Source: Actinomycetota bacterium (GTDB lineage Bacteria; Actinomycetota; Actinomycetes; S36-B12; CAIYMF01). Taken from it: a DNA stretch of 64,000 nucleotides. Where the stretch lies: assembly GCA_020161245.1 (NCBI GenBank), contig JAIUOK010000004.1:1-64000 (forward strand). Direction: 5' to 3'. Shown piece by piece: positions 29,824 to 41,801 of this stretch (its first letter is position 1; every line of letters starts with the position of its first letter). Under the pieces are notes generated by a model, which worked only from the letters and a program-made list of their open reading frames with translations, did no database searches and had not been told where the DNA came from. The translations under genes and the position numbers were made by a program.

Positions 29824-30576
29824 CTAGCGACGCACGGGCTCCCATCCGCGGCGCGGGTCGCGGTTGCCGTGCATACGCGGATCTCGGCTGCGGTACACGA
29901 GGTACGGGCGGGCGACGTAGCCGACGGGCGCGCTGAAGATATGCACGAGCCGGGTGAACGGGATCATGGCGAAGAGAACCATGGCAACCGCCGCGTGCAG
30001 CTGGAAGCTGAGCGGCGCCGACGTCATGTCGCCCGGGTCGGGGCTCAGGACGAACAGGCTGCGGAACCACACCGCGACCGACTCGCGGTAGTTGTAGCCG
30101 TCGGGGTAGCCGCCGGTCAGGTTGAGCATGTTGATGCCCACCGTGTTGAAGACGCCGAGGAGCACCACCGCGCCGAGCAGCACGTACATGACCTTGTCCA
30201 TCGGGGTGGTCACCTGGAACACGCGGGGCGTCGCGCGGCGCCGGTAGATCAGGATCGCCAGCCCGACGACCACCATGACCGCTGCGACGACGCCGAACGC
30301 CACCGCGGCGACGTGGTAGGTGTGCTCGCTGATGCCGATCGCAGAGGTCCACGACGCCGGCACCAGCAGCCCGAGCACGTGACCGCCGAGCGCGAGCAGG
30401 ATGCCGACGTGGAACAGCGGGCTGCCGATCCGGAGCAACCGGCTCTCGTAGATCTGGGAGGAGCGCGTCGTCCAGCCGTAGGCGTCGTAGCGGTAGCGCC
30501 AGAACATGCCCACCGCGAAAGCCACGACGCTGACGTAGGGCAGCGCCACCCACACGAAGCTCTGCAGCGGACTCAT
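29824..30576 (-). CDS. narI: Respiratory nitrate reductase, gamma subunit
   Basis: A 250-residue membrane cytochrome b that takes electrons from menaquinol and passes them to NarH. Five spans are predicted. Haem ligand histidines are visible in LFHVGILLALGGHVLG (near 54-66) and in SFQLHAAVAM and FTRLVHIFSAP (near 190 and 207). The length is normal for NarI. It is the last gene of the nar operon; its ATG overlaps the narJ stop (ATGA). Confidence 0.96.
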   Translation of the reverse strand: MSPLQSFVWVALPYVSVVAFAVGMFWRYRYDAYGWTTRSSQIYESRLLRIGSPLFHVGILLALGGHVLGLLVPASWTSAIGISEHTYHVAAVAFGVVAAVMVVVGLAILIYRRRATPRVFQVTTPMDKVMYVLLGAVVLLGVFNTVGINMLNLTGGYPDGYNYRESVAVWFRSLFVLSPDPGDMTSAPLSFQLHAAVAMVLFAMIPFTRLVHIFSAPVGYVARPYLVYRSRDPRMHGNRDPRRGWEPVRR

Positions 30577-31205
30577 GCGCGAGCACCCACCTTCAGGGAG
30601 TCGACAGGGACGAACGGGGCGAGTCCGACGACCTCGGACGGCGGGCCGGCGGCAGCGAGCTCCTGCGCGGTAGGGCCCTCGGGGGCAGCCGGCACGACGA
30701 CGAGCAGGGCGTCCACGGCGTGCGCGTACGGCGACGAGAACCGGTGCAGGGCGGCACTGAGGACCTCGATGCCGGACCGGTGCTGCGCGAGCAGCTCCAG
30801 GGCGACCGCGATGTCGCCGACAGCCCCGAACTCGAGCACGACCGGCAGGAAGTCGGGGAGCTCCTCGTTGCCGATGTCGAAGCCCGCCGCCTGGTAGGAC
30901 TCCTTGAAGCCGACCAGCGCCATCCCGCGGCGGCGGGTGTCGCCGTTGAGGAAGTAGGTCAGGTAGAGGCAGGCGCGCCGCCGTCGGTCGAAGATCTCGA
31001 CGTAGTGCGCCTGCGCGGCGACGAGCTCGGTGCTGCGCAGCCAGGACGCGACCTGCATCACCCCCTCAGCGGAACCCGCCGGCAGCGAGGCTGCTGCGTT
31101 CTGCACAGCGCCCAGCCGCTCGAGGGTCGTCTGCTCGGGGTAGGACAGCAGCATCGACGTGACGGCGAGCAGGCGCCGTACCGACCGTTCCTCGAACGTG
31201 GTCAC
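30573..31205 (-). CDS. narJ: Nitrate reductase assembly chaperone NarJ
   Basis: A 210-residue TorD/NarJ-type chaperone needed to load the molybdenum cofactor into NarG; it is not part of the final enzyme. Typical features are the helical N-terminus with LLSYPE, the LVAAQAHYVEIFDRRRRACLYLTYFLNGDTR block (cut here across two motifs: YVEIFDRRRR and CLYLTYF-x-x-GDTRRRG), and NEELPDFLPVVLEF. GTG 31205 is used because it overlaps the narH stop (GTGA); the longer frame upstream is a narH shadow. Confidence 0.95.
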   Translation of the reverse strand: MTTFEERSVRRLLAVTSMLLSYPEQTTLERLGAVQNAAASLPAGSAEGVMQVASWLRSTELVAAQAHYVEIFDRRRRACLYLTYFLNGDTRRRGMALVGFKESYQAAGFDIGNEELPDFLPVVLEFGAVGDIAVALELLAQHRSGIEVLSAALHRFSSPYAHAVDALLVVVPAAPEGPTAQELAAAGPPSEVVGLAPFVPVDSLKVGARA

Positions 31206-32788
31206 TGCAGGCCTCCCACCGGCGGCAGCTCCTCGTGCGTGTCGGCCTCGAAGCGCTTCTTGGTGACGTGGAAGCTCTCGATGGAGACCGGGACCGGCTT
31301 GAGCTCGCCCACCGGGGTGACCGTGCCCATGCCGGGACCGCCCTCGAAGTCGAGCGAGCAGCCGGGCGTCTCCTCCAGCGAGCGCGCAGCCTCCTGGTGG
31401 GCGGCGGGGATGACGTAGCGATGCTCGTACTTCGCGATCGCCAACAGCCGGTACATCTCGTAGAGGTCCTCGCCTGCGAGGCCGACCTGCGTCGCGATGC
31501 CCTCCTGGGTGTCGCGGCCGAGATTGACGTCGCGCATGTACGACCGCATGGCAGCGAGCCGGCGCAGCACGCCGTCCACGACTCCGGTGTCGCCCGCGGT
31601 CAGGAGGTTGGCGAGGTAGCCGACCGGGATACGCAGCGCCTCGATCGCGCCGAAGAGGTTGCCCGCGTCCTCGGCGTCGTGTCCGGAGTTCTTCAGTGCG
31701 TCGACCACAGGCGACAGCGGCGGGATGTACCAGACCATCGGCATGGTGCGGTACTCCGGGTGCAGCGGCAGCGCGAGGCGGTACTTCTTGGCGAGGGCGT
31801 ACACGGGCGACCTCTGCGCCGCCTCGATCCAGTCCTCGGCGATACCGTCTCGCCGCGCCTGCTCGACGACGGCCGGGTCGCTGGGGTCGAGGAGCACATC
31901 GAGCTGCGCTTCGTAGAGGTCCTTGTCGTCCTCCACCGAGGCGGCGGCCAGCACCTTGTCGGCGTCGTACAGGAACAGACCGATGTAGCGCAGCCGGCCA
32001 ACGCACGTCTCCGCGCACACGGTGGGCTGGCCCACCTCGATGCGGGGGTAGCACAGCGTGCACTTCTCCGCCTTGCCCGTGCGGTGGTTGAAGTAGACCT
32101 TCTTGTACGGGCAGCCCGACACGCACATGCGCCAGCCGCGGCAGCGGTCCTGGTCGACCAGCACGATGCCGTCCTCGGACCGCTTGTACATGGCGCCCGA
32201 CGGGCACGACGCCACGCACGACGGGTTGAGGCAGTGCTCGCAGATGCGCGGCAGGTAGAACATGAACGCCTTCTCGAGCTCGAAGACCACCTGGTCCTCG
32301 ATGCCCTTGAGCATCGGGTCGGTGTGACCGCGCTCATGGGTGCCCCCGAGGTCGTCGTCCCAGTTCGCGCCCCAGCGGATCTCCATGTCCTCGCCGGTGA
32401 TGAGCGACTTCGGCCGGGCCACGGGCGTCGTGTCCATCGGCGGGGCCGACACGAGGGTGTCGTAGTCGTAGGTCCACGGCTCGTAGTAGTCGTCGATGGT
32501 CGGCAGCTTCGGGTTGCTGAAGATCTGCGTGAGCCGGTGCCAGCGGCTGCCCGAGCGCAGGCGGAGCTTCCCGCGCTTGGTGCGGACCCAGCCGCCCTTC
32601 CACTGCTCCTGGTCCTCGTAGCGGCGCGGGTATCCGAGGCCGGGCCGCGTCTCGACGTTGTTGAACCACACGTACTCGACACCGGATCGGTTGGTCCACG
32701 TCTGCTTGCACGTCACCGAGCACGTGTGGCAGCCGATGCACTTGTCGAGGTTCATCACCATGCCCACCTGGGCCATGACGCGCGTCAT
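31202..32788 (-). CDS. narH: Respiratory nitrate reductase, beta subunit
   Basis: A 528-residue iron-sulfur subunit that carries electrons from NarI to NarG. Four cluster motifs are complete: CIGCHTCSVTCK at the N-terminus, CEHCLNPSCVASCP, CRGWRMCVSGCP and CTLC...CAETCVGRLRYIG. The Trp in CRGWRMC replaces a Cys, as expected for the 3Fe-4S cluster of NarH. ATG 32788 overlaps the narG stop by one base (TGATG). Confidence 0.97.
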   Translation of the reverse strand: MTRVMAQVGMVMNLDKCIGCHTCSVTCKQTWTNRSGVEYVWFNNVETRPGLGYPRRYEDQEQWKGGWVRTKRGKLRLRSGSRWHRLTQIFSNPKLPTIDDYYEPWTYDYDTLVSAPPMDTTPVARPKSLITGEDMEIRWGANWDDDLGGTHERGHTDPMLKGIEDQVVFELEKAFMFYLPRICEHCLNPSCVASCPSGAMYKRSEDGIVLVDQDRCRGWRMCVSGCPYKKVYFNHRTGKAEKCTLCYPRIEVGQPTVCAETCVGRLRYIGLFLYDADKVLAAASVEDDKDLYEAQLDVLLDPSDPAVVEQARRDGIAEDWIEAAQRSPVYALAKKYRLALPLHPEYRTMPMVWYIPPLSPVVDALKNSGHDAEDAGNLFGAIEALRIPVGYLANLLTAGDTGVVDGVLRRLAAMRSYMRDVNLGRDTQEGIATQVGLAGEDLYEMYRLLAIAKYEHRYVIPAAHQEAARSLEETPGCSLDFEGGPGMGTVTPVGELKPVPVSIESFHVTKKRFEADTHEELPPVGGLQ

Positions 32789-35700
32789 CAGTACTGGACC
32801 TCCTGCGAACGGCGGCGGATCGTGGTGACCTCGTCGCGCTGGTTGCCGGTGGGCCCGTAGTAGTTGAACCCGTACGACAGCTGGGCGTAGCCGCCCACGA
32901 GATGGGTCGGCTTGAGCAGCAGGCGCGTCAGCGAGTTGTGGATGCCGCCTCGCTTGCCGGTGCTCTCGACCCGCGGCACGCCGACCGTGCGGTCCTTGGC
33001 GTGGTACATGTACACGGTGCCCTCGGGCATGCGGTGGCTGACCACGGCGCGCGCGACGACGACGCCGTTGCGGTTGACCGCCTCGATCCAGTCGTTGTCC
33101 TTGACCCCGATCTTCTCGGCGTCCTCGCGGCTCATCCAGATGTCGGGCCCCCCGCGCGAGAGCGCGAGCATGAACAGGTTGTCCTGGTACTCCGAGTGGA
33201 TCGACCACTTCGAGTGCGGCGTCAGGTAGCGCACGACCACCTGCTGCTCGTCGTGGTCGCCGATCGTCGGGTAGCCCGCGATCGCGGCGAGGTTGAGCGG
33301 CGGCCGGTAGACCGGCATCTGCTCGCCCACCTCGGCCATCCACTCGTGGTCGAGGAAGAAGTGCTGGCGGCCCGTGAGGGTGTGCCACGGCTTGAGCCGC
33401 TCCACGTTGATCGTGAACGGCGAGTACCGGCGACCGCCGTGCTCGCTGCCCGACCACTCCCATGACGTGATCACGGGCTGCGGCCGGCTCTGCGTGTCTG
33501 CGAAGGTGATGAGCTTGCCCTCGTGCTCGCGGGCCAGGTCGGCCATCCGCTGGCCCGTGCGCCGCTCGAGCTGCTCGAACCCCGCGACCGCGACCTCGCC
33601 GTTCGAGACGCCGGAGAGGGCGAGGATCGCCTCGCACGCCTGCTCGGCCGTCTCGAGCCGGGGCCGTCCGTCGGCGACGCCGCCCCGGCGGGTGCCGTTG
33701 ACGCGTCCGAGATGCTCGACCGTGCGCGACTGCTTGAGCGTGACGCCCTTGACCACCGTGCCGAGGTTCTCGACGTTGGGACCGAGCGTCGCCATCTTCT
33801 CCGCCACCGCGCCGTAGTCGCGCTCGACGACGACGATCGCCGGCATCGTGCGGCCGGGGACCGGCTCGCACTCCCCTGCCCGCCAGTCGAGCACGCGGCC
33901 CAGCGGCTGCGCGATCTCCGTTGGGGTGTCGTGCTGCTGAGGCAGCGCGACCACGTCTGTGCGCACGCCGAGTCGCGGGCCGGCGAGCTCGGAGAACACC
34001 TGCGCCATCCGCTGGAACGCGTCGTAGTCGCTGCGGGCCTGCCACGGCGGCGCGATGGCGGCGTTGAAGGCGTGCACGTAGGGGTGCATGTCGGTGGAAG
34101 CGACGTCGTACTTCTCGTACCACGTGGCCGCGGGCAGGACGACGTCGCTGAACAGCGTCGTCGAGGTCATCCGGAAGTCCATCGACACGAGCAGGTCGAG
34201 CTTGCCGACCGGGGCCTCGTCGCGCCACGTCACGCTCGAGGGGCGCAGCCCCTCGGGCGTCTCATCGGCAGAGATGGCGCCGTCGGTGCCGAGGAGGTGG
34301 TGGAGGAAGTACTCGTTGCCCTTGCCGGACGACCCGAGCAGGTTCGCCCGCCACACGGTGAGTACGCGCGGCCAGTTCTCCTCGGCGTCGGGATCGTCGA
34401 CGCTGAACCGCAGCCGCCCCTCCGTGAGCTCCTGCACGACGTAGTCGGGCACCGCCATGCCGGCGTCGTGCGCCGCCTCGGCGATGCGGTGCGGGTTGTG
34501 GTCGAAGGTGGGGAACGACGGCGTCCAGCCCATGCGCGTGGCCTGCGCGAGGGTGTCGGCGAAGGCCTGTCCGCGGAACCGCCCGGTGCCGAGCGGCGAG
34601 GCGACGTCGTCTGCGCCGAACGCGTCGTAGCGCCACTGGTCGGTGTGCAGGTACCAGAACGAGGTGCCCGCCATCTGCCGCGGTGGGCGCGACCAGTCGA
34701 GGCCGAACGCCAGCTGCGCCCAGCCGGTGAACGGGCGCGCCTTCTCCTGACCGACGTAGTGCGCCCAGCCGCCGCCGTTCTTGCCCTGGCAGCCGGTGAG
34801 CAGCACCAGGCTGATGATCGCGCGGTAGATCGTGTCGGAGTGGTACCAGTGGTTGGTACCGGCGCCGAGCGTGATCATCGAGCGGCCGCCCGAGTCCACG
34901 GCGTTCTGCGCGAACTCGCGCGCCACACGGGCGACGGTCTGCGCCGGGACCGACGTGATCTCCTCCTGCCACGCAGGCGTGTAGAGGCTCTCCGGATCGC
35001 CATAGCCCTGCGACCACGTGCCGGGCAGGCCCGGTCGGCCGACGCCGTACTGCGCGAGCAGCAGGTCGTAGACGGTCGTGACGACGGCGTCGCCCACCCG
35101 CCGCACGGGCACACCCCGGCGGATCGCGCTGCCGCGCTCGCTGCCCTCGTCGCCGACGTCGAAGCGCGGCAGGTCGACCGTGACGGTCTCCGCGCCCTCG
35201 GCGAGAAGGGACAGCAGGGGGTCGGTGCCCTCGAGGTCGAGGTTCCAGCGGCCCTCGCCGGACTCGGTGTGCCGGAAGCCGATCGAGCCGTTGGGAACCA
35301 CAGGTGATCCGGTGCCCGCGTCGACGAGGACCGGCTTCCACTGCGCTGCCTCCACGTCCTCGCCGAGGTCCTCGGCGTTGACGAAGCGGTCGGGCACCCA
35401 CGAGTCGCCGTGCTGGCGCAGCGCGACGAGGAACGGCAGGTCGGTGTAGCGCTTGGCGTAGTCGACGAGCATCGGCTCCTGGCGCTCGACCCAGAACTCG
35501 CGCAGGACCACATGGCCCATGGCCATCGCGAGCGCGCCGTCCGTGCCCGGCTGCGCGGGGAGCCACTCGTCGGCGAACTTCGTGTTGTCGGCGTAGTCGG
35601 GGCTGACCGTGACGACCTTCTGCCCCTTGTAGCGCGCCTCGGCCATGAAGTGGGCGTCGGGCGTGCGGGTCGTGGGGATGTTGGAGCCCCACATGATCAG

Positions 35701-36480
35701 GTAGCTGGCGTTCCACCAGTCGGCCGACTCGGGGACATCGGTCTGGTCGCCCCAGATCTGCGGGGACGCGATGGGCAGGTCGCAGTACCAGTCGTAGAAC
35801 GACAGCATCGTGCCGCCGATGAGGGAGGTGTAGCGGGCACCTGCGGCGTGGGACGCCATCGACATCGCGGGGATCGGCGAGAAGCCGGCGACGCGGTCGG
35901 GCCCCCATCGGTCGATGGTGTGGACCTGCGCGGCGGCAACGATCTCGAGCGCCTCGTCCCACGACGCGCGGACCAGCCCGCCCTTTCCCCGCTGCTGCAT
36001 GTAGGCCCGACGGCGCTGAGGGTCGTCGACGATGCTCGCCCAGGCAGCGACGGGGTCGCCGCCGTGCTGCTGCTTGGCGCGTCGGTACATCTCGAGCAGA
36101 GCGCCGCGGATGTAGGGGTAGCGGACGCGGGTCGGCGAGTACGTGTACCAGGAGAACGCCGCTCCGCGCGGGCAGCCGCGCGGCTCGTACTCGGGCGAGT
36201 CCGGGCCCACCGACGGGTAGTCGGTCTGCTGGGTCTCCCACGTGATGATGCCGTCCTTGACGTACACCTTCCACGAGCACGACCCCGTGCAGTTGACCCC
36301 GTGGGTGCTGCGGACGATCCGGTCGTGCGACCAGCGGTCCCGGTAGAAGACGTCTCCCTCGCGGCCACCCACGTAGTGAACGGCACGGTGATCGGACGAC
36401 GTCTCGCTGCGGCTGAGGAACGCGCGTGCGGAGATAAGCGCATCGACCAGCGGGTCGTCGATGCGTTGCGGGGTGGTCAC
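32788..36480 (-). CDS. narG: Respiratory nitrate reductase, alpha (catalytic) subunit
   Basis: A 1230-residue molybdo-bis-MGD enzyme that reduces nitrate to nitrite on the cytoplasmic side. The N-terminal FS0 cluster site HGVNCTGSCSWKVY with a His ligand is seen near residue 50. The molybdenum-ligand Asp region LSFYDWYCDLPIASPQ is near 218, and TWSQGYGDPESLY, TLGAGTNHWYHSD and NLLGSSGKGNEYFLHH follow the family. Length is normal. No twin-arginine leader is seen, as is usual for membrane-bound NarG. GTG 36480 is chosen: GGGAG lies 7 bp before it and it starts one base after the regulator's stop, so regulator and narGHJI are probably one operon. Confidence 0.97.
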   Translation of the reverse strand: MTTPQRIDDPLVDALISARAFLSRSETSSDHRAVHYVGGREGDVFYRDRWSHDRIVRSTHGVNCTGSCSWKVYVKDGIITWETQQTDYPSVGPDSPEYEPRGCPRGAAFSWYTYSPTRVRYPYIRGALLEMYRRAKQQHGGDPVAAWASIVDDPQRRRAYMQQRGKGGLVRASWDEALEIVAAAQVHTIDRWGPDRVAGFSPIPAMSMASHAAGARYTSLIGGTMLSFYDWYCDLPIASPQIWGDQTDVPESADWWNASYLIMWGSNIPTTRTPDAHFMAEARYKGQKVVTVSPDYADNTKFADEWLPAQPGTDGALAMAMGHVVLREFWVERQEPMLVDYAKRYTDLPFLVALRQHGDSWVPDRFVNAEDLGEDVEAAQWKPVLVDAGTGSPVVPNGSIGFRHTESGEGRWNLDLEGTDPLLSLLAEGAETVTVDLPRFDVGDEGSERGSAIRRGVPVRRVGDAVVTTVYDLLLAQYGVGRPGLPGTWSQGYGDPESLYTPAWQEEITSVPAQTVARVAREFAQNAVDSGGRSMITLGAGTNHWYHSDTIYRAIISLVLLTGCQGKNGGGWAHYVGQEKARPFTGWAQLAFGLDWSRPPRQMAGTSFWYLHTDQWRYDAFGADDVASPLGTGRFRGQAFADTLAQATRMGWTPSFPTFDHNPHRIAEAAHDAGMAVPDYVVQELTEGRLRFSVDDPDAEENWPRVLTVWRANLLGSSGKGNEYFLHHLLGTDGAISADETPEGLRPSSVTWRDEAPVGKLDLLVSMDFRMTSTTLFSDVVLPAATWYEKYDVASTDMHPYVHAFNAAIAPPWQARSDYDAFQRMAQVFSELAGPRLGVRTDVVALPQQHDTPTEIAQPLGRVLDWRAGECEPVPGRTMPAIVVVERDYGAVAEKMATLGPNVENLGTVVKGVTLKQSRTVEHLGRVNGTRRGGVADGRPRLETAEQACEAILALSGVSNGEVAVAGFEQLERRTGQRMADLAREHEGKLITFADTQSRPQPVITSWEWSGSEHGGRRYSPFTINVERLKPWHTLTGRQHFFLDHEWMAEVGEQMPVYRPPLNLAAIAGYPTIGDHDEQQVVVRYLTPHSKWSIHSEYQDNLFMLALSRGGPDIWMSREDAEKIGVKDNDWIEAVNRNGVVVARAVVSHRMPEGTVYMYHAKDRTVGVPRVESTGKRGGIHNSLTRLLLKPTHLVGGYAQLSYGFNYYGPTGNQRDEVTTIRRRSQEVQY

Positions 36481-36481
36481 G

Positions 36482-37201
36482 TCATTGCTCCCAGGGGCGA
36501 GGTGCAGCCTGAGCCGGCTGCGGCGAGGGCGCTGGCCGGAGGTCCGGCCGGTCGAGGTGGACGACGCAGAGGTCGTCCTTGACGAAGATGTCGAGCCTGC
36601 GGACTCCGACGCCGGCGTCGAGCTCGCCGAAGAAGCCGCCCAGCATCTCGCGGTGGAGCCGGCAGATCGCGCGGTCCTGCCGGGCGAGGTCGGCGAACGG
36701 GCACTGGGCGAGGTAGAGCCGGTCGCCCAGCGGGTCGGTCGTGGTGTGGAAGCCGAGGACGTCGAGGCCCTCCACTGCCATCGCGACGGCCGTCTCGGGG
36801 TCCACGGGCGCACCCTCGCCGACCTGCTTGTCGCGCTGGGTCCGCGCCAGCCGTCGGCCGGCGGCCTCGCCCGGCGTCGTGCCGGGCTCGGTCGAGGCCG
36901 CGGCCAGCTCGGCGGCCAGCGCGCGGTACGGGTCGGTGGGCTCCCCATGGGGCACAGCCCGGTAGAGCAGCCGCGGCCGGCCAGGACGGCGGCGGGGCTC
37001 CGGCACGGACTCGACGAGGCCCATCTCGCCGAGCAGGGCGAGGTGGGCCCGGACGGTGTTGGCGTGCAGACCCGATCCGCGGACGATCGCCTCCACGGTG
37101 AGCGGGTCGGCGGCATTGTGCAGCAGGTCCAGGACCCGCCGCTGCGTCGTTCCGGGCTCGGGCGCGCCGGCGGCCGCAGAGAACGCCACAGGCTCCGACA
37201 T
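36482..37201 (-). CDS. Winged-helix regulator with predicted Fe-S cysteine cluster, heading the nar operon
   Basis: A 239-residue ArsR/SufR-like regulator. The DNA-binding domain covers residues 18-82 (QRRVLDLLHNAADPLTVEAI, GLHANTVRAHLALL, and a basic RRRPGRPRLLYR wing). The C-terminal domain has Cys167-x12-Cys180, His183 and Cys212, which resembles the Fe-S ligand pattern of SufR-type repressors, where C-x12-C starts the set. One SufR Cys is missing. ATG 37201 (MSEPVAFS) is preferred over upstream in-frame starts. It ends one base before narG and is divergent from narK, so it is a strong candidate for the local nitrate-respiration regulator, comparable in role to the [4Fe-4S] regulator ArnR of Corynebacterium glutamicum. 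Fe-S or NO sensing is inference. Confidence 0.8.
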   Translation of the reverse strand: MSEPVAFSAAAGAPEPGTTQRRVLDLLHNAADPLTVEAIVRGSGLHANTVRAHLALLGEMGLVESVPEPRRRPGRPRLLYRAVPHGEPTDPYRALAAELAAASTEPGTTPGEAAGRRLARTQRDKQVGEGAPVDPETAVAMAVEGLDVLGFHTTTDPLGDRLYLAQCPFADLARQDRAICRLHREMLGGFFGELDAGVGVRRLDIFVKDDLCVVHLDRPDLRPAPSPQPAQAAPRPWEQ

Positions 37202-37220: not shown

Positions 37221-37233
37221 TTGGTAATAACCA
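37221..37233. promoter_or_regulatory. TA-rich motif 1 in the nar divergent promoter
   Basis: TTGGTAATAACCA, with TGGT and ACCA as inverted arms. It lies 20 bp before the regulator start and is the first of three related motifs in this 200 bp region. Candidate operator for the Fe-S regulator. Confidence 0.5.
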
Positions 37234-37300
37234 CAGCCGGTGTGAGGAACCGACCCTCGCAGCGTAGGGCGACTCCCACCGTGCTGGGAAGCAGACGGAC

Positions 37301-37316
37301 TGTGGTCCATGTCACT
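37301..37316. promoter_or_regulatory. CRP/GlxR-like site
   Basis: TGTGG-tccatg-TCACT fits the TGTGA-N6-TCACA consensus of CRP-family proteins with the core GTG-N8-CAC intact. It abuts TA-rich motif 2 and could give global (cAMP-CRP/GlxR) control of nar genes. Binding is not shown. Confidence 0.4.
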
Positions 37317-37327
37317 AGTAAATAACA
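37316..37327. promoter_or_regulatory. TA-rich motif 2 in the nar divergent promoter
   Basis: TAGTAAATAACA, sharing the 9-mer GTAAATAAC with motif 3. The two 9-mers start 63 bp apart, which is six helical turns. Confidence 0.5.
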
Positions 37328-37377
37328 CTGGACGGGCTGGACTGCACCCGCGTGGATGGGCGTACCTTGCGGCGTGA

Positions 37378-37390
37378 TTGGTAAATAACA
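37378..37390. promoter_or_regulatory. TA-rich motif 3, next to the narK ribosome site
   Basis: TTGGTAAATAACA ends directly before the GGAGG ribosome site of narK (ATG 37402). A protein bound here would block transcription through the leader or, if the promoter lies upstream, act as a roadblock. Confidence 0.5.
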
Positions 37391-37401
37391 GGAGGCCGGT
37401 C

Positions 37402-38820: not shown

Positions 38821-40227
38821 ATGTCCGTCACCGCCCCACCCACCAGGACCGGCAAGGAATGGCTCGAGGACTGGGACCCTGAGGACTCCGCCACGTGGGA
38901 CTCCCGGCTCGCCTGGCGCACGCTCTGGGTATCGACGTTCGCACTGCTGCTGGCCTTCTCGACCTGGTTCCTCGCCAGCGCGATCGCACCGCAGCTGACC
39001 TCGCTCGGGTTCGACCTCACCAAGCAGCAGCTCTACTGGCTCACGGCCATGCCCGGCCTCGCGGGCGGCACGTTGAGGCTCGTCTGGATGTTCCTGCCGC
39101 CGATCCTCGGCACGCGGAAGCTGGTCACGCTCACCTCGCTGCTGCTCATCATCCCGCTCGTCGGCTGGGGCCTGGCCGTCCAGAACCCCGGCACGAGCTT
39201 CACCACCCTCCTGATCCTGTCGCTGCTCGCGGGAATCGGGGGCGGTGCGTTCTCCGGCTTCATGCCGAGCACGTCCTACTTCTTCCCGCGCAGCAAGCAG
39301 GGCACCGCCCTGGGCCTGCAGGCAGGGATCGGCAACTTCGGCGTCTCGGTGGTCCAGTTCGTGACGCCGTGGATCGTCGGCTTCGCGATGGTCGGCGCGC
39401 TCGGCGCCTCGCAGACGCTGCGCGAGGCAGGCAAGGACGCACGCGAGGTCTGGTACCAGAACGCCGCCTACATCTACGTCCCGTTCCTGGTCGTCGCCGT
39501 CATCCTCGCGTGGACTCTCCTCAAGAGCGTGCCGGTGACCGCGAGCGTGCGCCAGCAGCTCGACATCTTCGGCAACGCCGACACCTGGTGGATGACGATC
39601 CTGTACATCATGACGTTCGGCACCTTCGCCGGGCTGTCGGCACAGTTCGGCCTGCTGATCAAGAACCTCTACGGCGCGGGCAACACCGACATCGTCGCTG
39701 CGGTGGCCGGCGGCGGCAGCGAGCTGCTGGTGCCTGGGTACTCGGTCCCCCAGCCGCTCGCCTACGCCTTCCTCGGGCCCCTGGTCGGTGCGCTCGCTCG
39801 CGTAGCCTTCAGCCCGCTGACCGACCGGTTCGGGGGCGCTCGATGGACCCTGGTCTCCGGCGTCGGCATCCTCGGCTCGCTCCTGTGGACCCTCACGACG
39901 CTGGCACCGGACCCGGCTGCCGGCGCCGCAGCGCTGCAGTCGCAGTTCCAGTCGTTCCTGTGGGCGATGATCGCGATCTTCTTCTTCACCGGCATCGGCA
40001 ACGCCTCGACCTTCAAGCAGATGCCGATGATCTTCGAGCGGCGCCAGGCAGGGGGCGTCATCGGGTGGACGGCGGCGATCGCCGCCTACAGCCCCTTCGC
40101 CTTCGGGCTGCTCCTGGCCACGACGACTGTGCCCATCTTCTTCTGGATCGGTGTCGTCTTCACCCTCGTCGGCATCGCCATCACCTGGGTGCGCTACGCG
40201 CGGCCTGGAGCGCCCCGCCCGAGCTGA
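38821..40227 (+). CDS. Nitrate/nitrite MFS transporter, NarK family (second copy)
   Basis: A 468-residue MFS transporter of the same family but of another subtype. It begins with the tract KEWLEDWDPEDSATWDSRLAWR, split here as EDWDPEDSATW and SRLAWRTLW, common in the NarK2/U group, and has ITSLG-like FDLTKQQLYWLTAMPGLAGG, GGGAFSGFMPSTSYFFP and GLQAGIGNFGVSVVQF. A longer central region and loop differ from the first copy. Two distinct porters in tandem resemble the fused NarK1-NarK2 proteins of some proteobacteria, one for nitrate/H+ uptake and one for nitrate/nitrite exchange; which does which is inference. Confidence 0.9.
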   Translation: MSVTAPPTRTGKEWLEDWDPEDSATWDSRLAWRTLWVSTFALLLAFSTWFLASAIAPQLTSLGFDLTKQQLYWLTAMPGLAGGTLRLVWMFLPPILGTRKLVTLTSLLLIIPLVGWGLAVQNPGTSFTTLLILSLLAGIGGGAFSGFMPSTSYFFPRSKQGTALGLQAGIGNFGVSVVQFVTPWIVGFAMVGALGASQTLREAGKDAREVWYQNAAYIYVPFLVVAVILAWTLLKSVPVTASVRQQLDIFGNADTWWMTILYIMTFGTFAGLSAQFGLLIKNLYGAGNTDIVAAVAGGGSELLVPGYSVPQPLAYAFLGPLVGALARVAFSPLTDRFGGARWTLVSGVGILGSLLWTLTTLAPDPAAGAAALQSQFQSFLWAMIAIFFFTGIGNASTFKQMPMIFERRQAGGVIGWTAAIAAYSPFAFGLLLATTTVPIFFWIGVVFTLVGIAITWVRYARPGAPRPS

Positions 40228-40609: not shown

Positions 40610-40613
40610 CGTG

Positions 40614-41801
40614 ATGACGACGCTCGACCAGCACGCCGATGCACGCTCCCGCACGGCGCCGTCCTGGCACGACGCCCGTGCCGTGGCGCATGCCGCGGCA
40701 CAGGCGCGCAGGCCTGTGGCAGTGCCGCTCGACGCAGCATGCGGCCGCGTGCTCGCCGATGACGTGCTCGCAACGACAGCACTGCCCGCGTTCACGTCGT
40801 CGGCGATGGACGGCTGGGCGGTGTGCGGAGACGGTCCGTGGCTGCGGACCGGCACCGTGCTGGCCGGGGCGCGCCCCCCTCGCGCGCTCCGACCGGGCGA
40901 GGCGGTCGTCATCGCGACAGGGGCGCAGGTGCCGGAGGGCACCTGCGCCGTCCTCCGGTCGGAGGACGGCGTCGAGACGGAAGGGCTTGTCGTCGGCCGA
41001 GTCCTCGACGGCGCCGACCTCCGACCGGCGGGCGAGGAGGCACGTGCCGGGGACGTGCTGCTGGACAAGGGGACGCGCCTGCGGCCCGCGCACCTCGGGC
41101 TGGCGGCAGCGGCAGGCCACGACACCCTCCGTGTCCTGCCGTCGCCGTCGGTCGACGTGCTCGTGCTCGGCGACGAGCTGCTGGCCTCAGGAAGCGCCGG
41201 CGACGGCCAGGTGCGCGACGCCCTCGGTCCTCAGCTGCCCGCGTGGATCCGTGCGCTCGGCGCCGAGCACCGCGGAACTTCGCGAGTCGTCGACGACGCC
41301 GGGCTGCTCCGCGAGGCGCTGGCTGCCAGCCGCGGGGACGTGGTCGTCACTACCGGCGGCACCGCCGCAGGCCCCGTCGACCACGTGCACCGCTGCCTGG
41401 CCGACCTCGGCGCCGAGCTCCTCGTCGACTCGGTCGCCGTCCGGCCGGGCCACCCGATGCTGCTGGCGTCGCTGCCCGACGGCCGGAACATGGTGGGCCT
41501 GCCCGGCAACCCGCTCGCGGCGGTCGTCGGGCTGCTCACCCTCGCGGCGCCGCTGCTCGACGGTCTGCGCGGCCTGGCCCCGCAGCCGCTCGGCAGCGCC
41601 CGCCTCGCCGACGACGTCGCCGGCCCCCGGCACGGGCACCGCCTGATCCCCTGCTCCCTGCAGCACGGCCTCGCATCGCCGTGCGCTGCCACCGGCTCGG
41701 CCATGCTGAGGGGCCTCGCCTCGGCGGACGGTCTCGCAGTGGTCGGGCCCGGCCGGCATCCGCGGCGTAGCGTGGTGGCATGGCTCCCGCTGCCGGCGTG
41801 A
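40614..41801 (+). CDS. moeA: Molybdopterin molybdotransferase MoeA
   Basis: A 395-residue enzyme that inserts molybdate into adenylated molybdopterin, the cofactor that NarG needs. Motifs are intact: FTSSAMDGWAV near residue 60, RPGEAVVIATGAQVPEG near 92, the domain 3 start VDVLVLGDELL, TTGGTAAGPVDHV and VGLPGNPLAAV near 296. ATG 40614 is used; GTG 40611 is an alternative. It is the only molybdenum cofactor gene in the window. Placement in the nar cluster suggests co-expression with nitrate reductase. Confidence 0.93.
   Translation: MTTLDQHADARSRTAPSWHDARAVAHAAAQARRPVAVPLDAACGRVLADDVLATTALPAFTSSAMDGWAVCGDGPWLRTGTVLAGARPPRALRPGEAVVIATGAQVPEGTCAVLRSEDGVETEGLVVGRVLDGADLRPAGEEARAGDVLLDKGTRLRPAHLGLAAAAGHDTLRVLPSPSVDVLVLGDELLASGSAGDGQVRDALGPQLPAWIRALGAEHRGTSRVVDDAGLLREALAASRGDVVVTTGGTAAGPVDHVHRCLADLGAELLVDSVAVRPGHPMLLASLPDGRNMVGLPGNPLAAVVGLLTLAAPLLDGLRGLAPQPLGSARLADDVAGPRHGHRLIPCSLQHGLASPCAATGSAMLRGLASADGLAVVGPGRHPRRSVVAWLPLPA

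Follow-up and report, generated by a model that had tools for sequence, protein, structure and literature searches.

Conserved paired motifs and a candidate ArnR-type switch between divergent nitrate respiration genes in an actinobacterial family

The divergent nar locus and its A/T-rich motifs

The window, that is, the whole stretch of 64,000 nucleotides analyzed here, carries a nitrate respiration locus whose genes lie on both strands around a short intergenic region:

29824..30576, minus strand: narI (TIGR00351, 186 bits)
30573..31205, minus strand: narJ (TIGR00684, 123 bits)
31202..32788, minus strand: narH (TIGR01660, 784 bits)
32788..36480, minus strand: narG (TIGR01580, 1666 bits; GTG start)
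36482..37201, minus strand: regulator, an ArnR-like winged-helix protein of 239 aa with C167, C180, H183, and C212
37402..38805, plus strand: narK1, nitrate/nitrite transporter (TIGR00886, 9.9e-64, below the curated cut-off)
38821..40227, plus strand: narK2, second transporter (TIGR00886, 1.3e-79, below the curated cut-off)

The narG, narH, narJ, and narI products all exceeded the curated family cut-offs. The GTG start of narG lies 1 bp past the regulator stop codon, and there is no space for a narGHJI promoter directly upstream. With regulator-narGHJI on the minus strand and narK1-narK2 on the plus strand, the 200-bp region between them is thus the control region of two divergent transcription units, in agreement with the original prediction, which placed three TA-rich motifs in a divergent nar promoter. 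A MoeA-like molybdenum-cofactor gene (40611-41801) follows narK2 on the same strand and may share its transcription unit.

The features of the control region are listed below.

37223..37231, minus strand: operator 1, regulator side, GTTATTACC, which reads GTAATAAC at 37224-37231 on the plus strand
37301..37316, plus strand: predicted CRP/GlxR-like site TGTGGTCCATGTCACT, midway between operators 1 and 3
37318..37326, plus strand: middle motif GTAAATAAC, one base past the CRP-like 16-mer
37363..37368, plus strand: likely narK -10 hexamer TACCTT, assigned by inspection
37381..37389, plus strand: operator 3, narK side, GTAAATAAC, directly before the Shine-Dalgarno sequence AGGAGG at 37390-37395

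The three motifs (starting at 37224, 37318, and 37381) were found where predicted, with centre-to-centre distances of 94.5 and 63 bp, corresponding to 9.0 and 6.0 helical turns at 10.5 bp per turn. The outer two are 157.5 bp apart in the window, or 15.0 turns. They also stand out from the surrounding DNA as expected, being the sole A/T runs of at least 6 bases in a window of 73% GC. Neither GTAAATAAC nor GTAATAAC occurred in shuffles of the window. Among 20,000 random sequences matched in dinucleotide composition to the 200-bp intergenic region, 0.08% contained at least one copy of the 9-mer and none contained two. When the search was extended to the whole genome (4,287,795 bases), the two copies described above were the only exact ones. 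With one mismatch allowed, GTAAATAAC gave 7 genome-wide matches versus 11 for a reversed control and was therefore not over-represented, so the signal lies in clustering and conservation, not in abundance. At this stringency, a site serving a genome-wide regulon was accordingly discarded as an explanation.

Conservation of the layout in related genomes

A homologue of the regulator (E <= 1e-30) was present in 10 of 17 genomes of the family. Eight loci had both the full region and an orthologous regulator (61-72% identical), namely, the window, L004 to L009, and L124. At all eight, the motif recurred in the same divergent regulator-narK region, so that one condition set to refute the original prediction, absence from orthologous promoters, did not apply at the seven loci besides the window. 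The narK-side motif was exact in five loci, carried one mismatch in two (GTAAATACC and GTAATTAAC), and carried two mismatches in the remaining one (GCAAATACC). The regulator-side motif was found in seven of the eight loci, in a shortened form in this genome, and was very weak in L005. In the orthologues, it reads (G/A)TAAATAAC on the regulator's strand, immediately 5' of the Shine-Dalgarno sequence; here it is a degraded 8-mer with one A/T missing. Three family loci (L015, L018, and L020), whose regulator is 35-40% identical, lacked the motif. In the high-GC genomes with an orthologous regulator (G000, G002, G003, G007, and G009), all exact 9-mers lie within the nar region. A search of 60 relatives for the motif plus Shine-Dalgarno sequence returned nothing relevant, the pattern being too strict.

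The outer operators are symmetrical, each oriented toward its own gene, and are therefore inverted relative to each other. The idea of three same-side motifs was thus borne out for the spacing (9.0 and 6.0 turns) but not for simple same-direction copies, since GTAATAAC at 37224 matches either strand about equally well and, of the seven other loci, six have a clearly inverted site on the regulator side. The distance between the outer operators was 157.5, 157, 156, 157, 157, 157, 157, and 157 bp in the eight loci, whereas operator-to-start-codon distances varied widely. Mean ungapped identity between the conserved sites was 33% and 37% over locus pairs, compared with 25% after shuffling, and part of this excess is due to promoter hexamers and to one close pair, L008/L009. 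The distance is constant while the intervening DNA has diverged; the spacing has thus been kept and the sequence has not, which indicates that operator spacing is under constraint. The loci are related, however, so that the spacing amounts to few independent observations rather than independent tests of phasing. When 166 genomes of the order were searched for TTATTTA-N145-155-TAAATAA, the pattern was found in four family genomes, at the nar locus only and always with exactly 150 bases between the two halves; in AT-rich genomes of another family, it was no commoner than a control.

A site of the TGTNN-N6-TCAY form (TGTGA-N6-TCACA type) was present in all eight loci, with both half-sites off consensus at the outer or inner base. 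Measured start to start, it lies 79-80 bp from operator 3 and 77-78 bp from operator 1. A TAnnnT-type hexamer precedes operator 3 by 17-19 bp, also in all eight loci. From these comparisons, the conserved core appears to be an inverted pair of outer operators about 157 bp (about 15 turns) apart, centred on a CRP-like site.

Of the three motifs, conservation is poorest for the middle one. It is sharp in three of the eight loci (L003 to L005), where it begins 17 bp past the first base of the CRP-like site; in the other five, its place is A-rich and off consensus (AGAAATATC, TGAAGAATC, TGATTAATAC, TAAAAAATG, and TAAAAAACT). Because the motif adjoins the CRP-like site, its 63-bp distance to operator 3 is set by that position and by itself says little about phasing. 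Two roles are conceivable for it, an auxiliary operator in competition with an activator or an AT-rich upstream promoter element. In this species, it is probably an auxiliary repressor site, which would also compete with the activator. It was rejected as a narK -10 element because the conserved TAnnnT hexamer lies about 45 bp farther downstream; operator 3 was rejected in the same role since transcripts would then start within the Shine-Dalgarno sequence.

Several further sequences were noted in these genomes. On the regulator side, two elements are conserved in the window (37232-37300), L004, and L006 to L009: T(C/T)ACA (TCACA in most loci), some 12-18 bp inward of operator 1, and the hexamer TACnGT, some 34 bp inward of the same operator. 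The former may belong to a -10 element or to a second CRP half-site. In L008 (genome G013), the narK side carries an additional motif in tandem, TTAATTAAC, at 18 bp from operator 3. G003 has two complete nar loci (L005 and L124), each with its own regulator; the operators of the first copy are decayed and those of the second are intact. In more distant clades (L011, L012, L015, L040, L041, L046, and L049), a TGTGGTA(G/C/T)-type sequence lies 6-11 bp ahead of the regulator start codon, which suggests that transcripts there are leaderless and that the nar control region is more compact, with other AT-rich tracts. Exact copies of the 9-mer in family genomes that lack this regulator, or in AT-richer ones, were dismissed as candidate sites. 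Those outside nar regions (L131, L132, L135, L136, L125, L126, and L138) sit in unrelated sequence, among it a cobalamin-riboswitch-like stretch in L132 and L135 and one repeated element with CGAGTCCATCA inverted ends in L125, L126, and L138.

An ArnR-like regulator and the proposed switch

The N-terminal part of the regulator fits a winged helix of the ArsR/MarR type: it scored above the cut-off for the HTH_IclR and DprA_WH profiles and slightly below it for HTH_20 and HTH_5. Its predicted structure is a winged helix (mean pLDDT, 86.5), and a PDB structure search gave matches to the winged-helix domain with no full-length relative. C167, C180, H183, and C212 of the C-terminal domain (C-x12-C-x31-C plus the histidine) were invariant in sets of 12 and 18 sequences. 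At most loci, relatives of the regulator are adjacent to nar genes.

ArnR of Corynebacterium glutamicum is a winged-helix protein in which Cys179, Cys193, and Cys223 hold a [4Fe-4S] cluster, with a conserved histidine nearby; it represses narKGHJI and loses DNA binding upon exposure to NO, and GlxR activates the same operon (PMC12343034). The two systems share a nar-linked winged-helix regulator with three conserved cysteines and a histidine, and the combination of a repressor with a CRP/FNR-type activator (GlxR) on one nar promoter is predicted to be alike here. The cysteine spacings are 13 and 32 in the regulator versus 14 and 30 in ArnR. In C. glutamicum, arnR lies downstream of a single narKGHJI operon, whereas here the narGHJI operon opens with the regulator gene and narK is divergent; moreover, C. 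glutamicum ArnR also represses hmp, whereas exact motif copies here are confined to one region. We call the regulator ArnR-like rather than ArnR, as the match appears good in layout and is known by description rather than by direct alignment. SufR, the [4Fe-4S] winged-helix repressor, likewise combines a winged helix with a C-terminal cysteine cluster (PMC12343034), but it acts on suf genes, whereas the regulator here sits with nar genes. For the activator, the genome encodes a GlxR/Rv3676 orthologue (G000:C92), with E values of 4e-81 to Mycobacterium tuberculosis CRP-family chains and 3e-76 to a further CRP/FNR group (4byy, 4cyd, and 3r6s).

We consider it likely (probability of roughly 0.7) that this is the operator region of a divergent nitrate respiration switch, with an ArnR-like repressor on the outer operators and GlxR/Crp activation from the centre. 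The ArnR-like repressor, presumed to carry an Fe-S cluster and encoded by the leading gene of the regulator-narGHJI operon, would bind GTAAATAAC-type operators between promoter and Shine-Dalgarno sequence and block both transcription units, its own gene included. The narK start site is expected immediately upstream of operator 3, which follows the TAnnnT-type hexamer by 17-19 bp; a repressor bound there would thus occlude the point where narK transcription begins. On the regulator side, operator 1 would be the mirror image of operator 3. Midway between them, a GlxR/Crp-type activator would help both promoters once the repressor is released, plausibly when NO damages the cluster during anaerobiosis, as in Corynebacterium ArnR. 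That the regulator binds the motif is inferred from the co-occurrence of the two in one bacterial family; repression, its signal, and the activator's role are likewise predictions. Some details fit less well. The motif is an imperfect dyad, TnGTnAnTnACnA, which is short for a winged-helix dimer; the transcription start sites are guesses, and the regulator-side -10 element is ambiguous; and operator 1, very weak in L005, is also degraded in this genome.

Looping and other readings of the spacing

The conserved geometry can be read in several ways. The simplest account is steric repression at both ends with central activation, and we judge it somewhat better than an even bet that there is no loop. 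Each operator would block its own promoter, and the central CRP/GlxR dimer would fix the spacing to both RNA polymerases. The constant distances of the CRP-like site from operators 3 and 1 (79-80 and 77-78 bp) and of operator 3 from its hexamer (17-19 bp) are consistent with this arrangement. If the transcripts start about 6 bp before each operator, the CRP centre would lie near -66 for narK and -71 for the regulator, which is within the range of class I CRP promoters. Such an arrangement does not require exactly 15 turns between the operators, however, and it depends on an uncertain regulator -10 element and on a hypothetical activation of the regulator operon by GlxR.

Looping, which the original prediction suggested alongside cooperative repression, seems rather unlikely. 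In this reading, regulator dimers on operators 1 and 3, 15 turns apart on one face of the helix, would tetramerize and close a 157-bp loop, helped by a CRP-type bend and stabilized by the middle motif. It would explain why 157 bp, or 14.95 turns at 10.5 bp, has been kept in eight loci although the intervening DNA has diverged and why the CRP-like site lies within 2 bp of the midpoint, judged from start-to-start distances. In Escherichia coli, gal, lac, and deo have looping operator pairs with a bending protein between them. They resemble this region in having distant operators in helical register and a CRP or other bending site, but their repressor family differs. ArnR is reported to be dimeric both free and DNA bound (PMC12343034). 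No tetrameric form is known. In addition, activator-to-promoter geometry gives an identical spacing; the integral-turn distance found at the eight loci (156-157.5 bp) is predicted likewise by other constraints, and the relatedness of the loci leaves few independent observations of it. A repression loop bound by CRP would also be awkward if the CRP protein purely activates. It is distinctly doubtful, then, that a small Fe-S NO-sensing repressor loops 157 bp around a central CRP-type protein and so switches transport and nitrate reductase together. If true, the ArnR group would include a looping arrangement, one in which the state of the repressor's cluster would decide whether the CRP bend acts in repression or in activation.

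The remaining alternatives concern what recognizes the motif. Co-occurrence of motif and regulator does not prove binding, and the motif might instead be bound by a different protein, for example a global regulator of oxygen or nitrogen responses; by eye, a GlnR-like GTCAC-N6-ATAAC can be read at the middle site (37311-37326). This is quite improbable, because a global site should recur, whereas in five genomes with the regulator the exact 9-mer occurs in the nar region alone, and a GlnR box, which does not extend to the other two sites, was rejected as fitting the middle one only. Least probable of all is an A-rich leader that keeps the ribosome site open. It might be read from the outer motifs, which in most loci stand in sense orientation immediately 5' of each gene's Shine-Dalgarno sequence. 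Against it, start-codon distance varies and operator-to-operator distance does not, the middle motif lies outside any leader, the regulator-side copy here reads GTTATTACC in sense, and the 9-mer is otherwise absent from the genome.

Few organisms have known operators for ArnR-type Fe-S regulators. In these uncultured actinobacteria, a rigid promoter layout and a precise predicted operator motif emerged from comparison alone. Under the proposed switch, a single 157-bp module would join repression and activation of nitrate respiration, which would make it a clean system for distinguishing looping from steric repression.
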